Assembly: GCA_021772055.1 (NCBI GenBank) | Contig: JAETNR010000011.1 | Coordinates: 1-64,000, forward strand | Origin: Blautia sp. | Lineage (GTDB): Bacteria; Bacillota; Clostridia; Lachnospirales; Lachnospiraceae | DNA length: 64,000 nt | Reading direction: 5' to 3' | Shown: piece by piece, positions 8,763-36,641 of the stretch | How the letters are laid out: every line of letters starts with the position of its first letter | Position numbering within the stretch: position 1 is the stretch's first letter | The notes under the pieces: model-generated | What the model saw: the letters and a program-made list of their open reading frames with translations, nothing else | The model's database searches: none | What the model was told of the DNA's origin: nothing | Position numbers and translations under genes: made by a program

Positions 8763-9452
8763 TTAATTCATCTGTCCCGGTTCTTTACCCGGTCCCTCAT
8801 ATCTGTCATAAATTTCCAGCAGTTCCTCCGGTTTCTTTACAACAAGATCTGCGCCGTTTCCGGTCAGTTCCTCCAGATCGCGGAATCCCCACAGCACCCC
8901 GATCGTCAGCATTTTTGCTGCCTTTCCGGCCAGCATATCTGTCTTGGTATCTCCTATGTACATACATTCTCCGGGCAGCACTCCAAATTCCTCTGCTGCC
9001 TTCAGTAATCCGTCCGGTGCAGGTTTTCTTCGGATATCATCGCTTTGGCCAATCACCAGGTCAAAATCATCGCCAAACATTTGTGCAATTACTTTAACAG
9101 CAGCAGGATGAGGCTTATTTGAGCATACAGCCAGTTTTGCACCTCTTTTTTTCAGTTCTTTCAGAGTTTCCGGCATTCCCGGATAATGAGTCACTTTATA
9201 CATGGGATCTGCCGCAAACATTTCCCTGTAAATTTTCTGCCCTTCTTCAAATCTTTTAAGTTCAGGATCTCCGGCATCTTTCAGGCACCGCCGCATCAAC
9301 ATATTGGCGCCTTCGCCGCAATAATACCGAAAATTGTCTACCGGAAGTTCCTTCAGCCCGAATTTCTTCATAATCTCGTTAGCAACATACGCCATGGATT
9401 CCAGCGTATCTGCCAGTGTTCCATCCAAATCAAAAATACACGCTTTCATCAT
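8763..9452 (-). CDS. HAD-superfamily phosphatase (phosphoglycolate phosphatase-like)
   Basis: 229 residues. Motif I DLDGTLADT (nucleophile and acid Asp near residues 8-10), motif II AVCSNKP near 107-113, motif III KPAPDG and motif IV GDTKTDMLAG are all present, with a helical cap between I and II, as in Gph/PpaX/beta-phosphoglucomutase-like enzymes. It should dephosphorylate a small phosphorylated metabolite in the cytoplasm; the substrate cannot be read from sequence. It lies 12 bases downstream of maf, so the two are co-transcribed; pairing a house-cleaning pyrophosphatase with a HAD phosphatase would suit removal of damaged or unwanted phosphorylated metabolites. Confidence 0.92.
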   Translation of the reverse strand: MMKACIFDLDGTLADTLESMAYVANEIMKKFGLKELPVDNFRYYCGEGANMLMRRCLKDAGDPELKRFEEGQKIYREMFAADPMYKVTHYPGMPETLKELKKRGAKLAVCSNKPHPAAVKVIAQMFGDDFDLVIGQSDDIRRKPAPDGLLKAAEEFGVLPGECMYIGDTKTDMLAGKAAKMLTIGVLWGFRDLEELTGNGADLVVKKPEELLEIYDRYEGPGKEPGQMN

Positions 9453-9464
9453 CTTTTTATCCTC

Positions 9465-10055
9465 TTACTTCTTTCTCCTCAGGTCAATTCCATGCTGTTT
9501 TGCTTCATATATTAAATGTGCAACAGGCAGCCCCACCACATTTGAATAATCTCCGCAGATTCCCTTTACATAAATGCCAAAGCCGCCCTGAATGCCATAG
9601 CTTCCCGCCTTATCCATAGGCTCTCCGGTTTTTACATAATCCCTTATTTCATTTTCAGGTACAGGATAAAAGGTGACATCTGTCCGCTCTGCGAAGCTGA
9701 ACTGCTGCCATATATCACCTGCCCTTTCAAGCACCGTCACTCCTGTGTAGACCTGATGGGTATTTCCCTGAAGCTTAAGAAGCGTTTGTACCGCATCTTC
9801 CGCATCCAGGGGCTTGCCCAAAATGATTTCTCCGTATGCAACAATCGTATCAGCTCCAATAATCACTGCATCCTCTTTTATTTTTTCTGCCACAGACCGT
9901 GCTTTCTGGAAGGAAAGCTCCTTCACAATCTCCTGGGGCAGTACAGATGTAATCCGTTCTTCCTCTGTACTTGGAACAATGGAAAAAGAAATCCCCGCCT
10001 TTTCCAGCAGCTCCTTTCTTCGAGGTGAAGCGGATGCCAGAATTATTTTTCTCAT
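9465..10055 (-). CDS. maf: Maf family nucleotide pyrophosphatase
   Basis: 196 residues, the normal Maf length. The N-terminal LASASPRRKELLE signature, the GADTIV strand with the catalytic Asp, and DKAGSYGIQG near residues 146-155 identify a Maf/YhdE house-cleaning enzyme that hydrolyses non-canonical or surplus dNTPs/NTPs (dTTP, UTP or modified pyrimidines) to monophosphates and pyrophosphate. GAGGGG sits four bases before the ATG and a promoter lies at 10120-10092. It heads a transcript with the HAD phosphatase and the small acidic protein, and is divergent from the acidic membrane protein gene at 10261. Confidence 0.96.
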   Translation of the reverse strand: MRKIILASASPRRKELLEKAGISFSIVPSTEEERITSVLPQEIVKELSFQKARSVAEKIKEDAVIIGADTIVAYGEIILGKPLDAEDAVQTLLKLQGNTHQVYTGVTVLERAGDIWQQFSFAERTDVTFYPVPENEIRDYVKTGEPMDKAGSYGIQGGFGIYVKGICGDYSNVVGLPVAHLIYEAKQHGIDLRRKK

Positions 10056-25476: not shown

Positions 25477-26247
25477 CTAAAATTCCGGCATATTTGAACG
25501 AAATTTTAACGGGAGCAGCTGCTGTTGCAGTGCAGGATTCCTCCTCTCCCGGATGGTAACGCTTTTACAAAAGCATTTAAAAAGCTCTTCGTATTCCTCT
25601 TTTTCACTTAAAAAAGTATCCTGGTCCCGGAGGAATTCCGTATTTTTCCGGATAGAGCAGGTGCCGTCCCTGGGATGAAGAAGCACCTTTTTTCTCCGCT
25701 CATCATAAATCATCCAGTTTTCTCTGGGAAACCTGTCTGCAAAGTGAGGAGCAAGCATTTCCAGAATGTCATTCTCCGGGTTAATTTTGGAAAAAAGGAC
25801 TTTTCCTCCGATTTCCCGAAAGCGGACAAATCCATAATAGCGGTGCAGTTCATGCCAGACCCTGGTCCTTAACTTCGCTACCATATTCACATCCCCGTCG
25901 GCGAGATTTTCCATCACGTGCCTGTCACACCGTCTGCCGGAAAGCGCCTGCCAAAGCACACGAAATACCAGAGTCCCCTTATCCGCATGGCAGGAAACCG
26001 CAGTATAGCACAGCGCCTCATAAACCTCCATTCCCAGCTTCTCACGGATGGTCCGCAGTACCTTCCCTGCTTTCACATGATCAGAAGCAACTTCTACGAC
26101 TGTGGTAAAAAAATCCGGGTATTCCGGTTCCTTCACGGAGATTTCCACAGCCTTTCCCCTCATGCGCCAGGACCATCCATCATAAACTGCCGTAAAGATC
26201 CCTTCCATATGATCTTCACATACCAAAATCTTTTTTTCATAATCCAT
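25477..26247 (-). CDS. TIGR03915-type putative DNA repair/metabolism protein
   Basis: 256 residues, no signal peptide. The N-terminal FTAVYDGWSWR and the segments AGKVLRTIREKLG, ALSGRRCDRHVMENLADGDV and FRWxGxKVLFSKINP-like FREIGGKVLFSKINPENDILEMLAPHFADRFP are characteristic of the family found next to radical-SAM proteins of TIGR03916 and sometimes linked to uracil-DNA glycosylase domains. The chemistry is unknown; a nucleic-acid role is inferred from context. Start: ATG 26247 with GGGAGG five bases upstream, overlapping the radical-SAM gene by 11 bases; the longer frame is its shadow. Co-regulated with the LexA-box promoter at 27576-27625. Confidence 0.88.
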   Translation of the reverse strand: MDYEKKILVCEDHMEGIFTAVYDGWSWRMRGKAVEISVKEPEYPDFFTTVVEVASDHVKAGKVLRTIREKLGMEVYEALCYTAVSCHADKGTLVFRVLWQALSGRRCDRHVMENLADGDVNMVAKLRTRVWHELHRYYGFVRFREIGGKVLFSKINPENDILEMLAPHFADRFPRENWMIYDERRKKVLLHPRDGTCSIRKNTEFLRDQDTFLSEKEEYEELFKCFCKSVTIRERRNPALQQQLLPLKFRSNMPEF

Positions 26248-27556
26248 AAGTACCTCCCGCCTGCAGCAGGCTCTGATCATCAAACAGGGAAAGCTGTCTG
26301 TAGGTGATCTCAGACGGATGCACAGGAAGCTTCTCCCTCGGATCCAGCATATTCCGTACAATATAATCTTCATCCAGCTTCGTGGGATACATCATCTTAC
26401 CGCTGCAGGTAATAAAGTAAAGGGCGCGTTTCAAAACCACCCCCATCTTTTTCAGATCAGGGAAATCCAGGGAATGGTATCTCCGTGCTCCCAAAATCCT
26501 GGAGGCAGACTTGGTCCCGATTCCCGGAACCCGAAGAAGTGTCCGGTAATCCGCAGTATTGATTTCCACAGGGAAGCATTCCAAATGGCTGACAGCCCAG
26601 TCGCACTTCGGATCAAGAAGCAGGTTAAAATTAGGATGCTTCTCTGAAACTAGCTCCTCCGCACGAAAACCATAAAAACGAAGCAGCCAGTCTGCCTGAT
26701 ACAGCCTGTGTTCCCGGAGAAGAGGCGGACCCTGGGGCAGCATGGGAAGCGTACTGTCCTGGTTCACTGCCACAAACGCAGAATAGAAAACTCTTTTCAG
26801 AGAATACTGCCGATAAAGCGCTTCCGCAACAGCCACGATCTGGTAATCACTCTCCCCTGTCGCTCCGATGATCATCTGGGTACTCTGTCCTGCAGGGGCA
26901 AACTTCGGTGCATGACTGTACAAAATCAGCTCCTGCTTATTTTCCATATGACGTACCTGGATTTGCTTCATTGGCTTTAAGATCGTCTGGCGGCTTTTAT
27001 TCGGGGCGAGACGCTTCAGACCATCCGCAGTGGGCAGCTCAAGGTTCACACTCATTCTGTCCGCCAGAAATCCTGCCCGTTCAATAAGCTCCGGAGAAGC
27101 TCCCGGGATTGCTTTCATATGAATATATCCCTGAAAATGATACTTTCCCCGAAGAAGCTCCACTGCTCTGATCATCTCTTCCATTGTGGCATCGGGGCTT
27201 CCTTTCACGCCGGAGCTAAAAAATAATCCTTCGATATAGTTCCGTCTGTAAAATTCAATGGTGAGCCTGCTGACCTCCTCCGGAGTAAAGCTGGCACGCA
27301 CCACATCATTGGATGCACGATTCACGCAGTACTTACAGTCAAAGACACACTCATTTGTATAAAGGATTTTCAAAAGGCTGATGCACCGCCCGTCCCCTGC
27401 AAAGCTATGACAGATTCCCGGATGAATGCTGTTGCCGATTCCTTTTCCATCGCCCTTGCGATCCACGCCGCTGGAAGTACAGGCGACATCGTACTTCGCT
27501 GCATCAGAAAGGATCGTAAGCTTCTCCATGATACTCATTGATTCCTGAATAACCAT
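26237..27556 (-). CDS. TIGR03916-type radical-SAM DNA repair/modification protein
   Basis: 439 residues. The radical-SAM CxxxCxxC site is CVFDCKYC near residue 93, followed by an elongated TIM-barrel part (SSGVKGSPDATMEEM, HMKAIPGASPELIERAG). Near 350-380 a helix-hairpin-helix (VEINTADYRTLLRVPGIGTKSASRILGARR region) suggests DNA binding. Near the end QLSLF (residues 421-425) matches the beta-clamp-binding consensus. The substrate is unknown. Start: ATG 27556 with GGAGGG four bases upstream; the frame is open 41 codons further but runs through the promoter. It is the first gene of a two-gene operon with TIGR03915. Confidence 0.92.
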   Translation of the reverse strand: MVIQESMSIMEKLTILSDAAKYDVACTSSGVDRKGDGKGIGNSIHPGICHSFAGDGRCISLLKILYTNECVFDCKYCVNRASNDVVRASFTPEEVSRLTIEFYRRNYIEGLFFSSGVKGSPDATMEEMIRAVELLRGKYHFQGYIHMKAIPGASPELIERAGFLADRMSVNLELPTADGLKRLAPNKSRQTILKPMKQIQVRHMENKQELILYSHAPKFAPAGQSTQMIIGATGESDYQIVAVAEALYRQYSLKRVFYSAFVAVNQDSTLPMLPQGPPLLREHRLYQADWLLRFYGFRAEELVSEKHPNFNLLLDPKCDWAVSHLECFPVEINTADYRTLLRVPGIGTKSASRILGARRYHSLDFPDLKKMGVVLKRALYFITCSGKMMYPTKLDEDYIVRNMLDPREKLPVHPSEITYRQLSLFDDQSLLQAGGTYGL

Positions 27557-27575
27557 ATTGCCCTCCAGCTTTTCA

Positions 27576-27589
27576 CAAACATTTGTTCT
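27576..27589 (-). promoter_or_regulatory. LexA-box-like operator 2 (at the transcription start)
   Basis: Minus strand AGAACAAATGTTTG. It matches the Bacillus-type LexA consensus CGAACRNRYGTTYG at all but the first base and covers about +1 to +14 of the radical-SAM transcript. Confidence 0.7.
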
Positions 27590-27596
27590 TTCCTGT

Positions 27597-27625
27597 ATTA
27601 TAAACCAAACGTTCGTTTGTGTCAA
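27597..27625 (-). promoter_or_regulatory. Consensus promoter of the radical-SAM repair operon
   Basis: TTGACA (27625-27620), exactly 17 bases, TATAAT (27602-27597): a perfect vegetative promoter that would be strong unless repressed. Its spacer is a LexA-box-like palindrome. Confidence 0.88.
27606..27619 (-). promoter_or_regulatory. LexA-box-like operator 1 (inside the promoter spacer)
   Basis: Minus strand CAAACGAACGTTTG, one mismatch (second base) to CGAACRNRYGTTYG, fully inside the 17-base spacer between -35 and -10. A bound repressor would block polymerase directly. Confidence 0.75.
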
Positions 27626-27631
27626 GGCAAT

Positions 27632-27689
27632 AAAAAAAATCCTGTCTTTTTGGGCCCCGGAAAAGCTCCGGAGCCGCAAAAGACAGGAT
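27632..27689 (-). terminator. Terminator of the aspartate kinase gene
   Basis: ATCCTGTCTTT at the right end (minus strand from 27689) pairs with AAAGACAGGAT ending at 27640, with an inner CTCCGG/CCGGGG stem, followed by eight Ts. The stem starts at the stop codon. Confidence 0.88.
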
Positions 27690-32250: not shown

Positions 32251-35200
32251 TTACAGGAAATCAAAAAGGCTTAACTGTCTGGCTGCCTCTATTGCCTTTG
32301 GCTTTCCTGCCGTCCTTTTTTCGATATCCGCTTCGGGAAGTTCGGCCAGGAACGGGGATGGCTCCCCTGCATAAGTGAGGATAAGTTCCTCCTTTGCGCG
32401 GGTCATTCCCACATAAAAAAGCCGGCGCTCCTCTTCCTCATCAGCCGGATTCTTTTCCCTTTCCAGAGGGATTTCTCCTTTTCCCATTCCGTATAGGATC
32501 ACGGCCGGAAACTCCAGCCCTTTTGCCCCGTGAAATGTCATAAGGGAAACAGTATCTGCCTGGTAGGTTTTTCCGCTGCAACGTTTCAGATCCCCTTCTT
32601 CTCCCAGAAGAAGAGCTTCCAGAAAGTCCGGCATTGTCTCATAGCAGACAGCCATGGCGGCAAGTCTGAAAAGCTCAGGGCAGTCTTCCTTTTCCAGGTC
32701 TTTCATCCATTCCTTCAAAAGCCTGGCAGGTTTTCCCCGCTTCCATTTCTTTTTGTATTTTTCAGCCAGATTTTCATAGATGGATTCCCCAAGTCCACTC
32801 TCCTCCAAATCCCACAAAAGCCGGATTGCTTCCTTCCGGGAACACTTCAGAACGGAACCTTCCAGGGAGCGGAAAAAGGCAATCGTTCCCTGTACCAGAG
32901 GGTGGGCAAGGAAGTCTTCTCTTCCCCTCACAACATAGGGAATACCCTCCTGGCTGAGACACTTCTCCAGGAGCTTTGCCTGGTGATGTGTCCTGTATAA
33001 AATAGCAATATCACGGAAGGAATAAGTCTTTTTATCCTCCCGGAATATCTCCCGCTGTTCTGTATCCAGCATGTCGATTCCACCCATAAGGCGGCCGACT
33101 TCTTTGGCAGCAAAAATAGCCTCGGACTTCTTGGACCTGGTACTTGCTACCTGTACGGGAACCCCTTTCTCCATGTGGGGAATCAGAACCCTCGGTTCCC
33201 CGGGATTATGGGAAATCACCTGTACTGCCGCCTCTGCAATGGAGCCTGTACAGCGGTAATTTTCCTTCAGATTAATCACCGTAAGATCCGGATAATAAAG
33301 CTTTAGCTTGTCAAAACACCGGGCATCTGAGCCGCGGAAACCATAAATGGACTGATCCGGATCCCCGATGACAAAAAGTTCTCTTCCATGAGCATTCCAT
33401 GCCCGGATCAGATTCAGCTGCAAAGGGCTGATATCCTGAAATTCATCTACCAGAAGATAGGGAAGCTGCTGCTCCTCTTCCTTTGCCTTATCCAGTGCTG
33501 TCAGCAAAAGATCATCAAAGTCGTTCCAGCCTTTCTCCTTTAATCTGGATTGATAAGCAAAAAATGCCGGCTCCGGTTCCCTGCATCCTGCTTTCCATAA
33601 GGAAACCCGGCGCAGAAGTTCTCCGGCAGGGATCTCCAATCTATACTCAGCGCAGATCTCTCCGGCAATTTCCCTGATTTCCTCCTGAGATGCCGGATAC
33701 AGATCCAATCCGCTTTTTTGAAGCAGCCTAAGGCTTATGGAATGAAAAGTCCCGATATTCATGCGCTGAATGCTTTTTCCATTTCCAAGCCTGGCTGCAA
33801 GGCGTTCCTTCATTTCTCCCGCAGCCTGATTGGTAAAAGTCACTGCTGTAATCTCAGAAGGCTTTACTTTTCGCTGCTCCAAAAGATAAAGAATCCTGGA
33901 TACCAGAGTTTTGGTCTTCCCTGTACCCGGGCCTGCGATTACCGCTACGGCACGGTCAATCGTTTCTACAGCCTGCTTCTGCCCTGCATTCAGCTCCTCA
34001 CCTGACAGAATACGTTCTTCTGCTTCATCCCCTTTTGAGATTTCTTCCCGATTGTCCCCAGCATCCGGTTCTGCCGCTGTTTCTCTATCCTCGGTCTGCC
34101 ACTGTCCCATTCCTTCAAACAGGCTCATCTGCCCGTCCGGATTTTGGATCTCATCGTTTTCAAACAGCCGGATGGTTCCGTATTCTCCGTCAAATCCGGG
34201 GCGGCGGATCACTTCCCCGGCCCGCAGGCGGCGGATTCCCTCTGCTATGAGATATCCCCCTTCCTTGCGGATATCTTCCACCGGGATTTCCCGCAAAACA
34301 GAAAACTCCGGGCCTAAGGAAGCCAGCATTCTTTCATAGTCTTCCCGCACTTTTTTGCTGGCGGAAGAACGCCCTGTGGAGGCAGCGATCACCTCAGGCA
34401 GAGGCACCAGATTCTCAAAAGGCCTGGCGTTTTCTTTCACAAAACCATCCTCCCGGTCTGAAAGCTGCACGATTCTGTGGTCCACGCCCATGGTAAGCCT
34501 TTTGCCGCAGACAGGACATTTTCCATGATACTTTTCTGCTTCTTTCGGGCTTAAGCAGATATGGCACTTCCGGTGTCCGTCATAGTGATATTTGCCTTCC
34601 TCCGGAAAAAATTCAATGGTTCCTTCCAGTCCTTTTCCTTCCTGAACAGCAGCCGCAAGTCCCTGATAGGACGGTTCAATATTCAGAAGATTCGCCTCCC
34701 GTCCAAGCTTTGCAGGAGAATGGGCATCGGAGTTGGAAATCAGCCAAAACCGATCCAGTGCGGAAATCCGCCAGTTCATCAGAGGATCTGATGACAATCC
34801 TGTTTCCAGTGCATGAATATACGGCGTCAGATCCTCAAAGCACTCTTCTATAGTATCAAACCCTGACATGGCACCAAACAAAGAAAAATGCGGTGTCCAG
34901 ATATGCGCCGGAACCAGGATTCCCTCCGGACAGATTTCCAGCATGATCTCCAGAAGGTCATGGCAATCCAGGCCAAGAATCGGTCTTCCGTCAGAATGGA
35001 TATTTCCGATGGTTTCCAGTTTTCTGGAAAGCTTTTCTGCATCCTCAAGGCCCGGAAGAAGAATCAGACTGTGGACTTTTCTTGTTTTGCCGTTCTTTTT
35101 ATAAATGGAACTGATTTCTCCAGTGACCACAAACCTTGGAGAATCTCCGGAAAAAGCCCTTGCCTCGTTAAGGACATGCTCCTCCTTCAGCTTATACAGG

Positions 35201-35385
35201 CCATCCTCCGCCATTTCCAGCTGTTCCCTTAATTCCTCCCTCCATGCAGGATGGGTAAAATCCCCGGTTCCCACAATGGAAATTCCCTTTTTTCGTGCCC
35301 ACAGATCCAGATGTTTCGGAGTTCCCTCCTTGCTGGTAGCCATGGAATATCTGGAATGTATATGCAAATCCGCAATCTGTCTCAT
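32251..35385 (-). CDS. Endonuclease Q-like PHP nuclease fused to UvrD-family helicase
   Basis: 1044 residues. Residues 1-400 look like endonuclease Q, which nicks 5' of deaminated bases: PHP-metal motifs DLHIHSRYS, GTGDFTHPAW, DCHDLL, VPAHIWTPH and SNSDAHSPAKLGREA; a four-Cys zinc site CHIC...CPVCGKR near 273-296; and STGRSSASKKV plus GEVIRRPGFDGEYG. Residues about 455-1035 are a superfamily 1 UvrD helicase: AGPGTGKTKT near 483, VDEFQDISPLQ, GDPDQSIYGFRG, LKENYRC, VSLMTFHGAKGLEF and LFYVGMTRAKEELIL. QMSLF (419-423, in the linker) and QLSLF (1037-1041, at the extreme C-terminus) match the beta-clamp motif. The start overlaps the dinB stop by four bases. Confidence 0.92.
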   Translation of the reverse strand: MRQIADLHIHSRYSMATSKEGTPKHLDLWARKKGISIVGTGDFTHPAWREELREQLEMAEDGLYKLKEEHVLNEARAFSGDSPRFVVTGEISSIYKKNGKTRKVHSLILLPGLEDAEKLSRKLETIGNIHSDGRPILGLDCHDLLEIMLEICPEGILVPAHIWTPHFSLFGAMSGFDTIEECFEDLTPYIHALETGLSSDPLMNWRISALDRFWLISNSDAHSPAKLGREANLLNIEPSYQGLAAAVQEGKGLEGTIEFFPEEGKYHYDGHRKCHICLSPKEAEKYHGKCPVCGKRLTMGVDHRIVQLSDREDGFVKENARPFENLVPLPEVIAASTGRSSASKKVREDYERMLASLGPEFSVLREIPVEDIRKEGGYLIAEGIRRLRAGEVIRRPGFDGEYGTIRLFENDEIQNPDGQMSLFEGMGQWQTEDRETAAEPDAGDNREEISKGDEAEERILSGEELNAGQKQAVETIDRAVAVIAGPGTGKTKTLVSRILYLLEQRKVKPSEITAVTFTNQAAGEMKERLAARLGNGKSIQRMNIGTFHSISLRLLQKSGLDLYPASQEEIREIAGEICAEYRLEIPAGELLRRVSLWKAGCREPEPAFFAYQSRLKEKGWNDFDDLLLTALDKAKEEEQQLPYLLVDEFQDISPLQLNLIRAWNAHGRELFVIGDPDQSIYGFRGSDARCFDKLKLYYPDLTVINLKENYRCTGSIAEAAVQVISHNPGEPRVLIPHMEKGVPVQVASTRSKKSEAIFAAKEVGRLMGGIDMLDTEQREIFREDKKTYSFRDIAILYRTHHQAKLLEKCLSQEGIPYVVRGREDFLAHPLVQGTIAFFRSLEGSVLKCSRKEAIRLLWDLEESGLGESIYENLAEKYKKKWKRGKPARLLKEWMKDLEKEDCPELFRLAAMAVCYETMPDFLEALLLGEEGDLKRCSGKTYQADTVSLMTFHGAKGLEFPAVILYGMGKGEIPLEREKNPADEEEERRLFYVGMTRAKEELILTYAGEPSPFLAELPEADIEKRTAGKPKAIEAARQLSLFDFL

Positions 35386-36641
35386 ATTTTTCCCTCTTTT
35401 CTAACAATCCTGTCTTTGACTGAACTGTTAGTATCTCTTGAATCCGGGTTATTTATATCCGAAATTTTCTTTTCTGCTTCCAGCTCGGCAGCGGTTTTAA
35501 TGATTTCGGAGCCATATTTCTGGCGCAGCTTGAACAGCTTTTCATTCAGCTTATCTTTTTTATCATTCTTCTCTATGTTTTCCATGTTCCACAGGGAAAT
35601 CTGCTCTTCCTTTGTCTGGGTAAAATTCCCTACCCCCACTCCCACAAGGCGGATGGGAGCAATGGTGATCCGATCAAGCTGCTTTACTGCTGCATGGTAA
35701 ATATCTTCCATCCGATTGGTTGGCTCTACTGTCTCAGAGCGGGTAATCCCCCGCATGGTGGCATAGGTGATTTTCAGGGTCACCGTTTGTCCGTACAGAT
35801 GGGCTGCCTGCAGCTTCAGGCTCAGTTCTTTTGAAAAGAGCAGCAGGTAGCTTTTCAGATATTCCAGATCTACGGAATCATGCTGAAAGGTATGCTCCCT
35901 GCTGATGGATTTCGCTTCCGATTCATAATAGGGAACCACTTCCCTGTCATCAATTCCCTTCGCCATCTCCACAATCTGCTGTCCCCTTTTGCCAAACACC
36001 TGGATCACCCGCTGCTGATTTTCTAAAATGTCCCGCACCCTGTAGATTTTCATCTGGTGAAGCTTCTCGGAGGATTTCGTTCCGACGCCCAGAAGCCCCT
36101 CAATCTTCCGGTCGATCACAAGCCTCTGGAAAAATGCCTGATCCGGAACCTCAAAGAAACCATCCGGCTTCTTTTCTTCACTGGCAAATTTCGCTGCCGC
36201 TTTGCTGTAGCCGATTCCCACGGAGCAGGTAAGCCCCACCTCATTCCGCGTCCGTTCCTTGATCTTCCAGGCAATTTCCGATGCGCCTCCAAAAAGCTTC
36301 ACTGTACTGGTGACATCCAGGTAGCCCTCATCCAGGGACAGGTACTCAATAACATCCGTATAAGTGCTCCAGATTTCATGAATGGCTCTTGACGCTGTTT
36401 TATACTTGTGCATATTAGGATGCATATAAATCCCATGAGGACAGCGCCTATATGCCTCCTTAATATTCATTGCTGACCGGACACCATATTTCCTGGCCTC
36501 ATAGCTGCATGTGGAAACCACCCCCCGCTCTGTGGGAAGGGCACCGATGATCAGTGGCTTTCCCACAAGGGCCGGATTGTCTCTGCTCTCTACAGAGGCA
36601 AAAAAAGCATCCATATCCACATGTATGATCTTTCTATTCAT
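35382..36641 (-). CDS. dinB: DNA polymerase IV (Y-family, translesion)
   Basis: 419 residues. Palm motifs: HVDMDAFFASVE (metal Asp near 8 and 10) and LSLDEGYLDVT with the second metal-site Asp-Glu (the usual SIDEAY is here SLDEGY). The little-finger domain follows and carries QISLW at residues 347-351, a beta-clamp-binding pentapeptide. The enzyme copies past damaged bases without proofreading. Start: ATG 36641 (MNRKIIHVDMD) with AAAGGAG 13 bases upstream, slightly far; the longer frame from 36674 has no ribosome site. The gene is coupled to the EndoQ-UvrD gene downstream and lies 33 bases after a HAD gene. No LexA box was found near. Confidence 0.96.
   Translation of the reverse strand: MNRKIIHVDMDAFFASVESRDNPALVGKPLIIGALPTERGVVSTCSYEARKYGVRSAMNIKEAYRRCPHGIYMHPNMHKYKTASRAIHEIWSTYTDVIEYLSLDEGYLDVTSTVKLFGGASEIAWKIKERTRNEVGLTCSVGIGYSKAAAKFASEEKKPDGFFEVPDQAFFQRLVIDRKIEGLLGVGTKSSEKLHQMKIYRVRDILENQQRVIQVFGKRGQQIVEMAKGIDDREVVPYYESEAKSISREHTFQHDSVDLEYLKSYLLLFSKELSLKLQAAHLYGQTVTLKITYATMRGITRSETVEPTNRMEDIYHAAVKQLDRITIAPIRLVGVGVGNFTQTKEEQISLWNMENIEKNDKKDKLNEKLFKLRQKYGSEIIKTAAELEAEKKISDINNPDSRDTNSSVKDRIVRKEGKI

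Follow-up and report, generated by a model that had tools for sequence, protein, structure and literature searches.

In the parts of the literature consulted, Endonuclease Q (EndoQ) appears as an enzyme of archaea of which some bacteria have copies, and its cut 5' of a lesion leaves a 3'-OH and a 5'-phosphate (PMC4357722). EndoQ chemistry is reported there for relatives that include the Bacillus pumilus enzyme (PMC4357722, PMC6202378). PCNA binds to archaeal EndoQ at a C-terminal PIP box and stimulates the enzyme, and Shiraishi and colleagues noted that bacterial EndoQ homologues contain β-clamp consensus motifs in their C-terminal region (PMC4858679). The β-clamp consensus itself is given as QL[S/D]LF, or more generally QxxLF, with two identical sites per clamp (PMC12309361). 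In the literature searched, which was seen in part and covers few subscription journals, we found no mention of an EndoQ fused to a UvrD helicase and no biochemistry of any fused protein; a description elsewhere is possible.

Such a fusion lies in the stretch of DNA analyzed here (the window, 64,000 nucleotides). From conserved features of its sequence, we consider it probable that the encoded protein is tethered to the sliding clamp and, as a single chain, nicks and unwinds DNA to repair deaminated bases and probably AP sites, with no part for the neighboring DinB polymerase.

Results

The fusion gene (32251..35385, minus strand), delimited by its open reading frame (ORF), family matches and an AlphaFold model, encodes 1,044 residues and is joined to dinB by an ATGA in which the dinB stop overlaps the fusion start (35382..35385, minus strand, read directly from the sequence). 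Both the fusion and the overlap had been pointed out in an earlier note on this DNA, and both are borne out by the ORF, the family matches and the sequence. Residues 1–416 (34138..35385, minus strand) make up the EndoQ domain, comprising the PHP nuclease, the zinc site and the C-terminal domain, and the EndoQ fold is covered at its whole length, zinc and C-terminal domains included. The metal-binding and catalytic residues H8, H10, E76, H84, H139 and D193 of Pyrococcus furiosus (Pfu) EndoQ, mapped onto the fusion, are invariant in 44/44 fusions, and the zinc-site cysteines C274, C277, C290 and C293 are all present in the window protein (C277 is kept in 32/44 relatives); the complete EndoQ-like PHP nuclease with a four-Cys zinc site that had been claimed is thus found. 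The same holds for the claimed complete UvrD helicase, as UvrD-type SF1A motifs and the whole UvrD fold are present, in residues 462–1030 (32296..34002, minus strand). Both domains look intact. The AlphaFold model has a mean pLDDT of 85; with a pTM of 0.58, the placement of the domains is not firmly given by the model.

The EndoQ part matches TIGR00375, an NCBI hypothetical equivalog, with 170 bits and does not reach its curated cut-off of 326.6, and the helicase part likewise falls below the equivalog cut-offs for PcrA (295 bits against 911), UvrD (232 against 1144) and Rep (289 against 951). A quick maximum-likelihood tree of EndoQ domains (114 rows, with near relatives thinned and rows of short EndoQ cover left out) separates 102 rows, the fused type together with its stand-alone relatives, from 12 classic EndoQ sequences, including PfuEndoQ, with 99% support. 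As judged by score and tree, the fusion EndoQ is a clade beside classic EndoQ, outside the TIGR00375 equivalog. Along this tree the label ‘fused’ takes 9 changes, and 22 stand-alone or split rows are nested among fused ones, a pattern for which repeated loss of the helicase would be the simplest reading. For the helicase part, a comparison with PcrA (33 of 75 fused loci were chosen together with the window, and 27 rows including the window passed the Walker A pattern) gave a support of 88 for fused and split rows as one side, which is not significant.

A scan of genome contigs with the whole protein matched at least 592 stretches; among the best 80 loci, which were kept, there is a frame of more than 800 residues in 75/80 loci according to an ORF script. 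Among the remaining five, the gene is split in two (L072 and L081), one ends with its contig (L069), and two that had been dropped by the ORF filter (L064 and L079) have EndoQ and UvrD in one frame according to a second script. The lineage labels listed for fused loci are Bacillota, Chloroflexota, Calditrichota, KSB1, Spirochaetota, SAR324, Planctomycetota, Gemmatimonadota, Latescibacterota and Pseudomonadota. Two nearly identical loci, L066 and L070, are labelled Latescibacterota and Gemmatimonadetes, and one of these bin labels is probably wrong; because of this clash, and because many loci are metagenome bins, single lineage labels are unsafe. Within the window's phylum, EndoQ was detected at E 1e-30 or better in 129/299 genomes, in two clear score classes. 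The fused form was called in 37/299 genomes, by frame length first, after which a UvrD match was confirmed in all 37; beyond these, G071 and G206 have partial fusions at contig ends. The earlier note had known EndoQ as a stand-alone enzyme; stand-alone forms do occur, but this description does not cover the 37 genomes with a fused form. The survey of genomes that it had called for shows the EndoQ–UvrD pairing to be kept far beyond close relatives.

At closer range the distribution is patchy. Among 60 genomes of the window's genus, 15 carry the fusion and 18 an EndoQ without helicase (63–75% identity); the other 27 gave no match at E 1e-50, so that the fusion is dispensable. Ten stand-alone EndoQ loci inspected in the genus have no helicase within 1.5 kb downstream; in one stand-alone locus of the genus (L103) the helicase part is absent at the position of the window's helicase, and the next frame resembles, by eye, the window's proA. 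In two genomes that carry the fused gene, G060 (L155) and G334 (L156), another EndoQ gene, stand-alone but of the fusion type, is present at a distance of about 10 kb or less.

The fused form is associated with the absence of uracil-DNA glycosylase (UDG; PF03167), which was found in 268/299 genomes of the phylum and not in 31 (20 listed genomes and 11 by elimination). It occurs in 13/31 UDG-less and in 24/268 UDG-bearing genomes (Fisher p 9e-6), whereas classic EndoQ is not enriched (9/31 against 71/268; p 0.83). Five genomes were left out of these counts as uncertain (G071, G206, G247, G281 and G323); the two with partial fusions comprise one without UDG (G071) and one with it (G206), and G323 has a stand-alone EndoQ. 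When genomes were collapsed by family, the sole correction for kinship applied to this association and one in which two genomes of unseen family were counted with the others, a UDG-less genome was present in 10/19 families with a fused genome and in 12/99 others (p 2e-4), and in 9 of those 10 families the UDG-less genome is a fused one. In the eight genomes with only stand-alone fusion-type EndoQ (G323 included), UDG is present in 8/8, compared with 24/37 fused genomes, a difference that is not significant (p 0.08). Endonuclease IV (nfo) is richer in fused genomes (32/37 against 176/262 others; p 0.02), which argues against general loss of repair genes, nfo being the one further gene compared; endonuclease IV is not replaced by the fusion.

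UDG has 2 matches in the genome from which the window comes and is present in 58/60 genomes of the genus, this one included, so that the fusion there is not the sole route for uracil and is rather an addition. Because Endonuclease V (EndoV) was not found in that genome at E 1e-10, the fusion may perhaps serve mainly hypoxanthine there. EndoV is rare in the phylum (5/299 genomes), and none of the five genomes bearing it has EndoQ at E 1e-30; the idea that EndoV replaces or accompanies EndoQ was dropped, as five genomes are too few.

A feature that appears to be a new observation is that the fusion carries two conserved β-clamp-binding-type motifs, likely hooks for the clamp, supported in each case by alignment, pattern counts and low pLDDT: QMSLF in the linker after EndoQ (residues 419–423; 34117..34131, minus strand) and QLSLF (residues 1037–1041; 32263..32277, minus strand) within the C-terminus RQLSLFDFL. 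Both lie in predicted disorder (AlphaFold pLDDT <50 in 418–462 and 1030–1044), and the fusion thus satisfies twice the pattern of a β-clamp client, QL[S/D]LF or QxxLF in an accessible (low-pLDDT) segment. In alignment A2, which spans the labelled lineages with 44 rows, the C-terminal Q1037 is Q in 43/43, L1040 is L or F in 43/43 and F1041 is F in 40/42; in the linker, Q419 is Q in 42/44, L422 is L or F in 43/44 and F423 is F in 35/44, within flanks that are mostly variable save for G418 (37/44) and E412 (38/44).

Pattern counts agree with this conservation. QxxLF/L occurs in the last 14 residues of 76/80 distinct complete C-termini of fused proteins (82 before identical sequences were merged) and at the C-terminus of 12/13 fetched later, one of which (L205) is without its N-terminus; overall, 88/93 distinct fused proteins have the C-terminal pattern and 5/93 are without it. 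A stricter form is found in 57/71 complete C-termini, as against a mean of 0.13 and a maximum of 2 in shuffles. The linker pattern, sought within residues 396–470, is present in 100/113 distinct fused rows (shuffles: mean 5.6, maximum 13) and missing in 13/113. By comparison, C-terminal QxxLF/L is found in 0/30 PcrA proteins (taken from 30 of 57 matching genomes), 0/12 classic EndoQ proteins and 1/23 stand-alone fusion-type EndoQ proteins, the one case being L103, where the stretch lies inside the EndoQ end; no such motif was seen by eye at the C-termini of three other UvrD-matching proteins of the window's genome. A general UvrD-helicase trait is therefore rejected as far as PcrA is concerned. 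Since B. subtilis DnaE has a QMGLF that fits the consensus yet binds the clamp weakly (about 78 µM; PMC12309361, seen in part), the motif alone is no proof of strong binding. The two split loci add to the picture, as EndoQ and UvrD are encoded there by adjacent separate genes, 6 and 9 bp apart in L072 and L081, whose ends read GQTMLF and KQMKLF in L072, and GQGTLF and PQMGLF in L081; each gene thus ends in its own motif, which suggests one motif per enzyme.

UvrD-family helicases act as accessory replication motors, and the protein might instead be mainly a replication-fork or collision helicase, with the clamp-tethered UvrD as the main activity and EndoQ as a lesion-triggered entry device for fork clearing. 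The C-terminal clamp-type motif is in line with this idea, and the rarity of that pattern in stand-alone fusion-type EndoQ suggests that motif and motor go together. On the other hand, EndoQ persists without the motor in all 23 of those stand-alone rows, and the enrichment of the fusion in UDG-less genomes points to base repair; we regard a primary role at the fork as unlikely.

No widely conserved neighbor was found among the fused loci. In the window, family scans of the neighbors identified dinB, proA, a HAD hydrolase and ABC transporters. Some recurrences deserve mention in their own right. The Endonuclease III gene nth lies directly 3' of the fusion in three loci (L009, at 9193-9852, L010 and L014), and the L009 protein passes the TIGR01083 cut-off. 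A gene for an MntP-family manganese efflux pump adjoins the fusion in three others (L042, L060 and L073; a BLAST cluster), and an MntP-like gene is also seen by eye beside EndoQ in L103, a recurrence that may be chance. About 5 kb from the fusion, a DUF4130 protein (PF13566) adjoins a 480-aa ORF (window 25480-27679, minus strand), which we take to be the DNA modification/repair pair called ‘radical SAM linked to UDG’. Scans of the window for promoters (14 against 9.6 in shuffles) and terminators (18 against 11.0) were not used.

This neighborhood also bears on the idea that the fusion defends against phages or other elements with uracil- or hypoxanthine-containing DNA. A possible antiviral role of bacterial EndoQ is mentioned in the part of one paper that was consulted (PMC8307549); the helicase part matches PADLOC GajB models (best 246 bits), as UvrD-type helicases may, and patchiness within the genus would suit a defence gene. 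However, the GajB matches are confined to the helicase part and no GajA-like gene is present among the scanned neighbors, which led us to reject Gabija (GajAB), and carriage by phages or plasmids was rejected after searches of 50,697 phage records with the EndoQ domain (E 1e-10) and of 72,556 plasmid records with the entire protein (E 1e-60), neither of which gave a match. With no conserved neighborhood either, a defence function seems decidedly improbable.

The neighbor dinB (35382..36641, minus strand) encodes DNA polymerase IV, as shown by PF00817 (IMS), PF11799 (IMS_C) and a score of 356.9 bits for NF002677, which exceeds the cut-off of 256. DinB polymerases bind the clamp, and a pattern match places a clamp-binding-motif-like QISLW in this one (35589..35603, minus strand). 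The fused rows that extend 900 bp or more upstream number 116 and stand for 112 distinct loci (flanks up to 1.5 kb or 6 kb); the window is the one locus among them in which dinB and the fusion abut. In the nearest relative (L060, 82% identical) it lies 620 bp upstream with mntP (PF02659) between and the ATGA overlap absent, and in the alignment L060 has about 600 bp where the window has about 50. The stand-alone EndoQ locus L103 of the same genus has dinB ~1 kb upstream, with an MntP-like frame between by eye, and L073 has a 26%-identical dinB homologue 2 kb upstream. Given the separation in L060 and L103, the ATGA overlap appears to have arisen recently by a local deletion, presumably on the window's side. 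No LexA-box-like pattern was found near dinB; GAACNNNNGTTY occurs seven times in the window against 3.45 expected, at no site close to this gene, and SOS control via such sites was rejected. The position of dinB beside the fusion seems to be a local accident and does not justify positing a system coupled to DinB; the earlier note's inclusion of DinB in such a system fails on adjacency, whose lack of conservation that note had itself named as a refutation. An operon supplying recognition, strand opening and translesion filling from one transcript is very improbable: the same-strand ATGA overlap in the window's genome and the clamp-type motifs in both proteins would favor it, but the two genes abut in a single locus, mntP intervenes in L060, no neighbor is widely conserved, and the template after a 5' cut would be the undamaged strand, making translesion synthesis needless.

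Discussion

What survives of that earlier proposal is its recognition and strand-opening part: with EndoQ and UvrD fused, intact-looking and widely conserved, nicking followed by unwinding is a sound deduction, and translesion filling by DinB is set aside. For the fused protein itself, we infer dU/dI chemistry, helicase activity and its direction, clamp binding and the hand-off between domains. On that footing, the clamp-tethered nick-and-unwind enzyme that we favor would work as follows. The EndoQ domain would flip out dU, dI, dX or an AP site and incise 5' of the lesion, so that the damaged strand is left with a 3'-OH and a 5'-phosphate. The nick would then be handed to the fused UvrD motor, which, moving 3' to 5' along the intact strand, would displace the damaged strand as a flap, starting at its 5' end. 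With one clamp motif behind each enzyme, the protein could dock on both sites of the β-clamp dimer, which would place the fusion at newly made DNA, beside the polymerase extending the 3'-OH; ordinary enzymes would then remove the flap and ligate.

More broadly, and tentatively, many bacteria, among them lineages with no PF03167 UDG match, may possess a glycosylase-free, replication-coupled form of deamination repair, performed by a nickase/3'-5' helicase seated on both clamp sites. It would be a bacterial counterpart of archaeal EndoQ–PCNA repair that uses another kind of clamp peptide, and would at the same time resemble the MutL–clamp–UvrD system compressed into one chain. If this reading is true, bacteria own a second complete route for removing uracil and hypoxanthine, and the fate of DNA after EndoQ incision could be addressed with one purified chain and DnaN. 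The occurrence of the fused form in 37/299 genomes of one phylum and under nine other lineage labels widens the archaeal-centred picture of EndoQ.

Compared with the Endonuclease Q of P. furiosus, Thermococcus and B. pumilus, the window protein differs by its fusion to UvrD and by a second clamp-type motif, and its type is set apart from classic EndoQ by the branch with 99% SH-aLRT support and by the TIGR00375 score (170 bits against the cut-off of 326.6). With PcrA, UvrD and Rep it shares a UvrD-type motor over the whole fold; it lies far under their equivalog cut-offs, and its C-terminal clamp-type motif is absent from 30/30 PcrA proteins. Alternative excision repair by Endonuclease V likewise begins with a nick beside a deaminated base and without a glycosylase, but that enzyme cuts on the other (3') side and belongs to a different Pfam family. 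In MutH-less mismatch repair, a clamp-activated nick by MutL is likewise followed by UvrD unwinding (PMC8744996, seen in part). Family scans of the fusion revealed no MutS or MutL homology, and the arrangement also differs from the MutL pathway in that the lesion itself would be the signal, the nick would be made at the lesion, and nickase and helicase are one chain.
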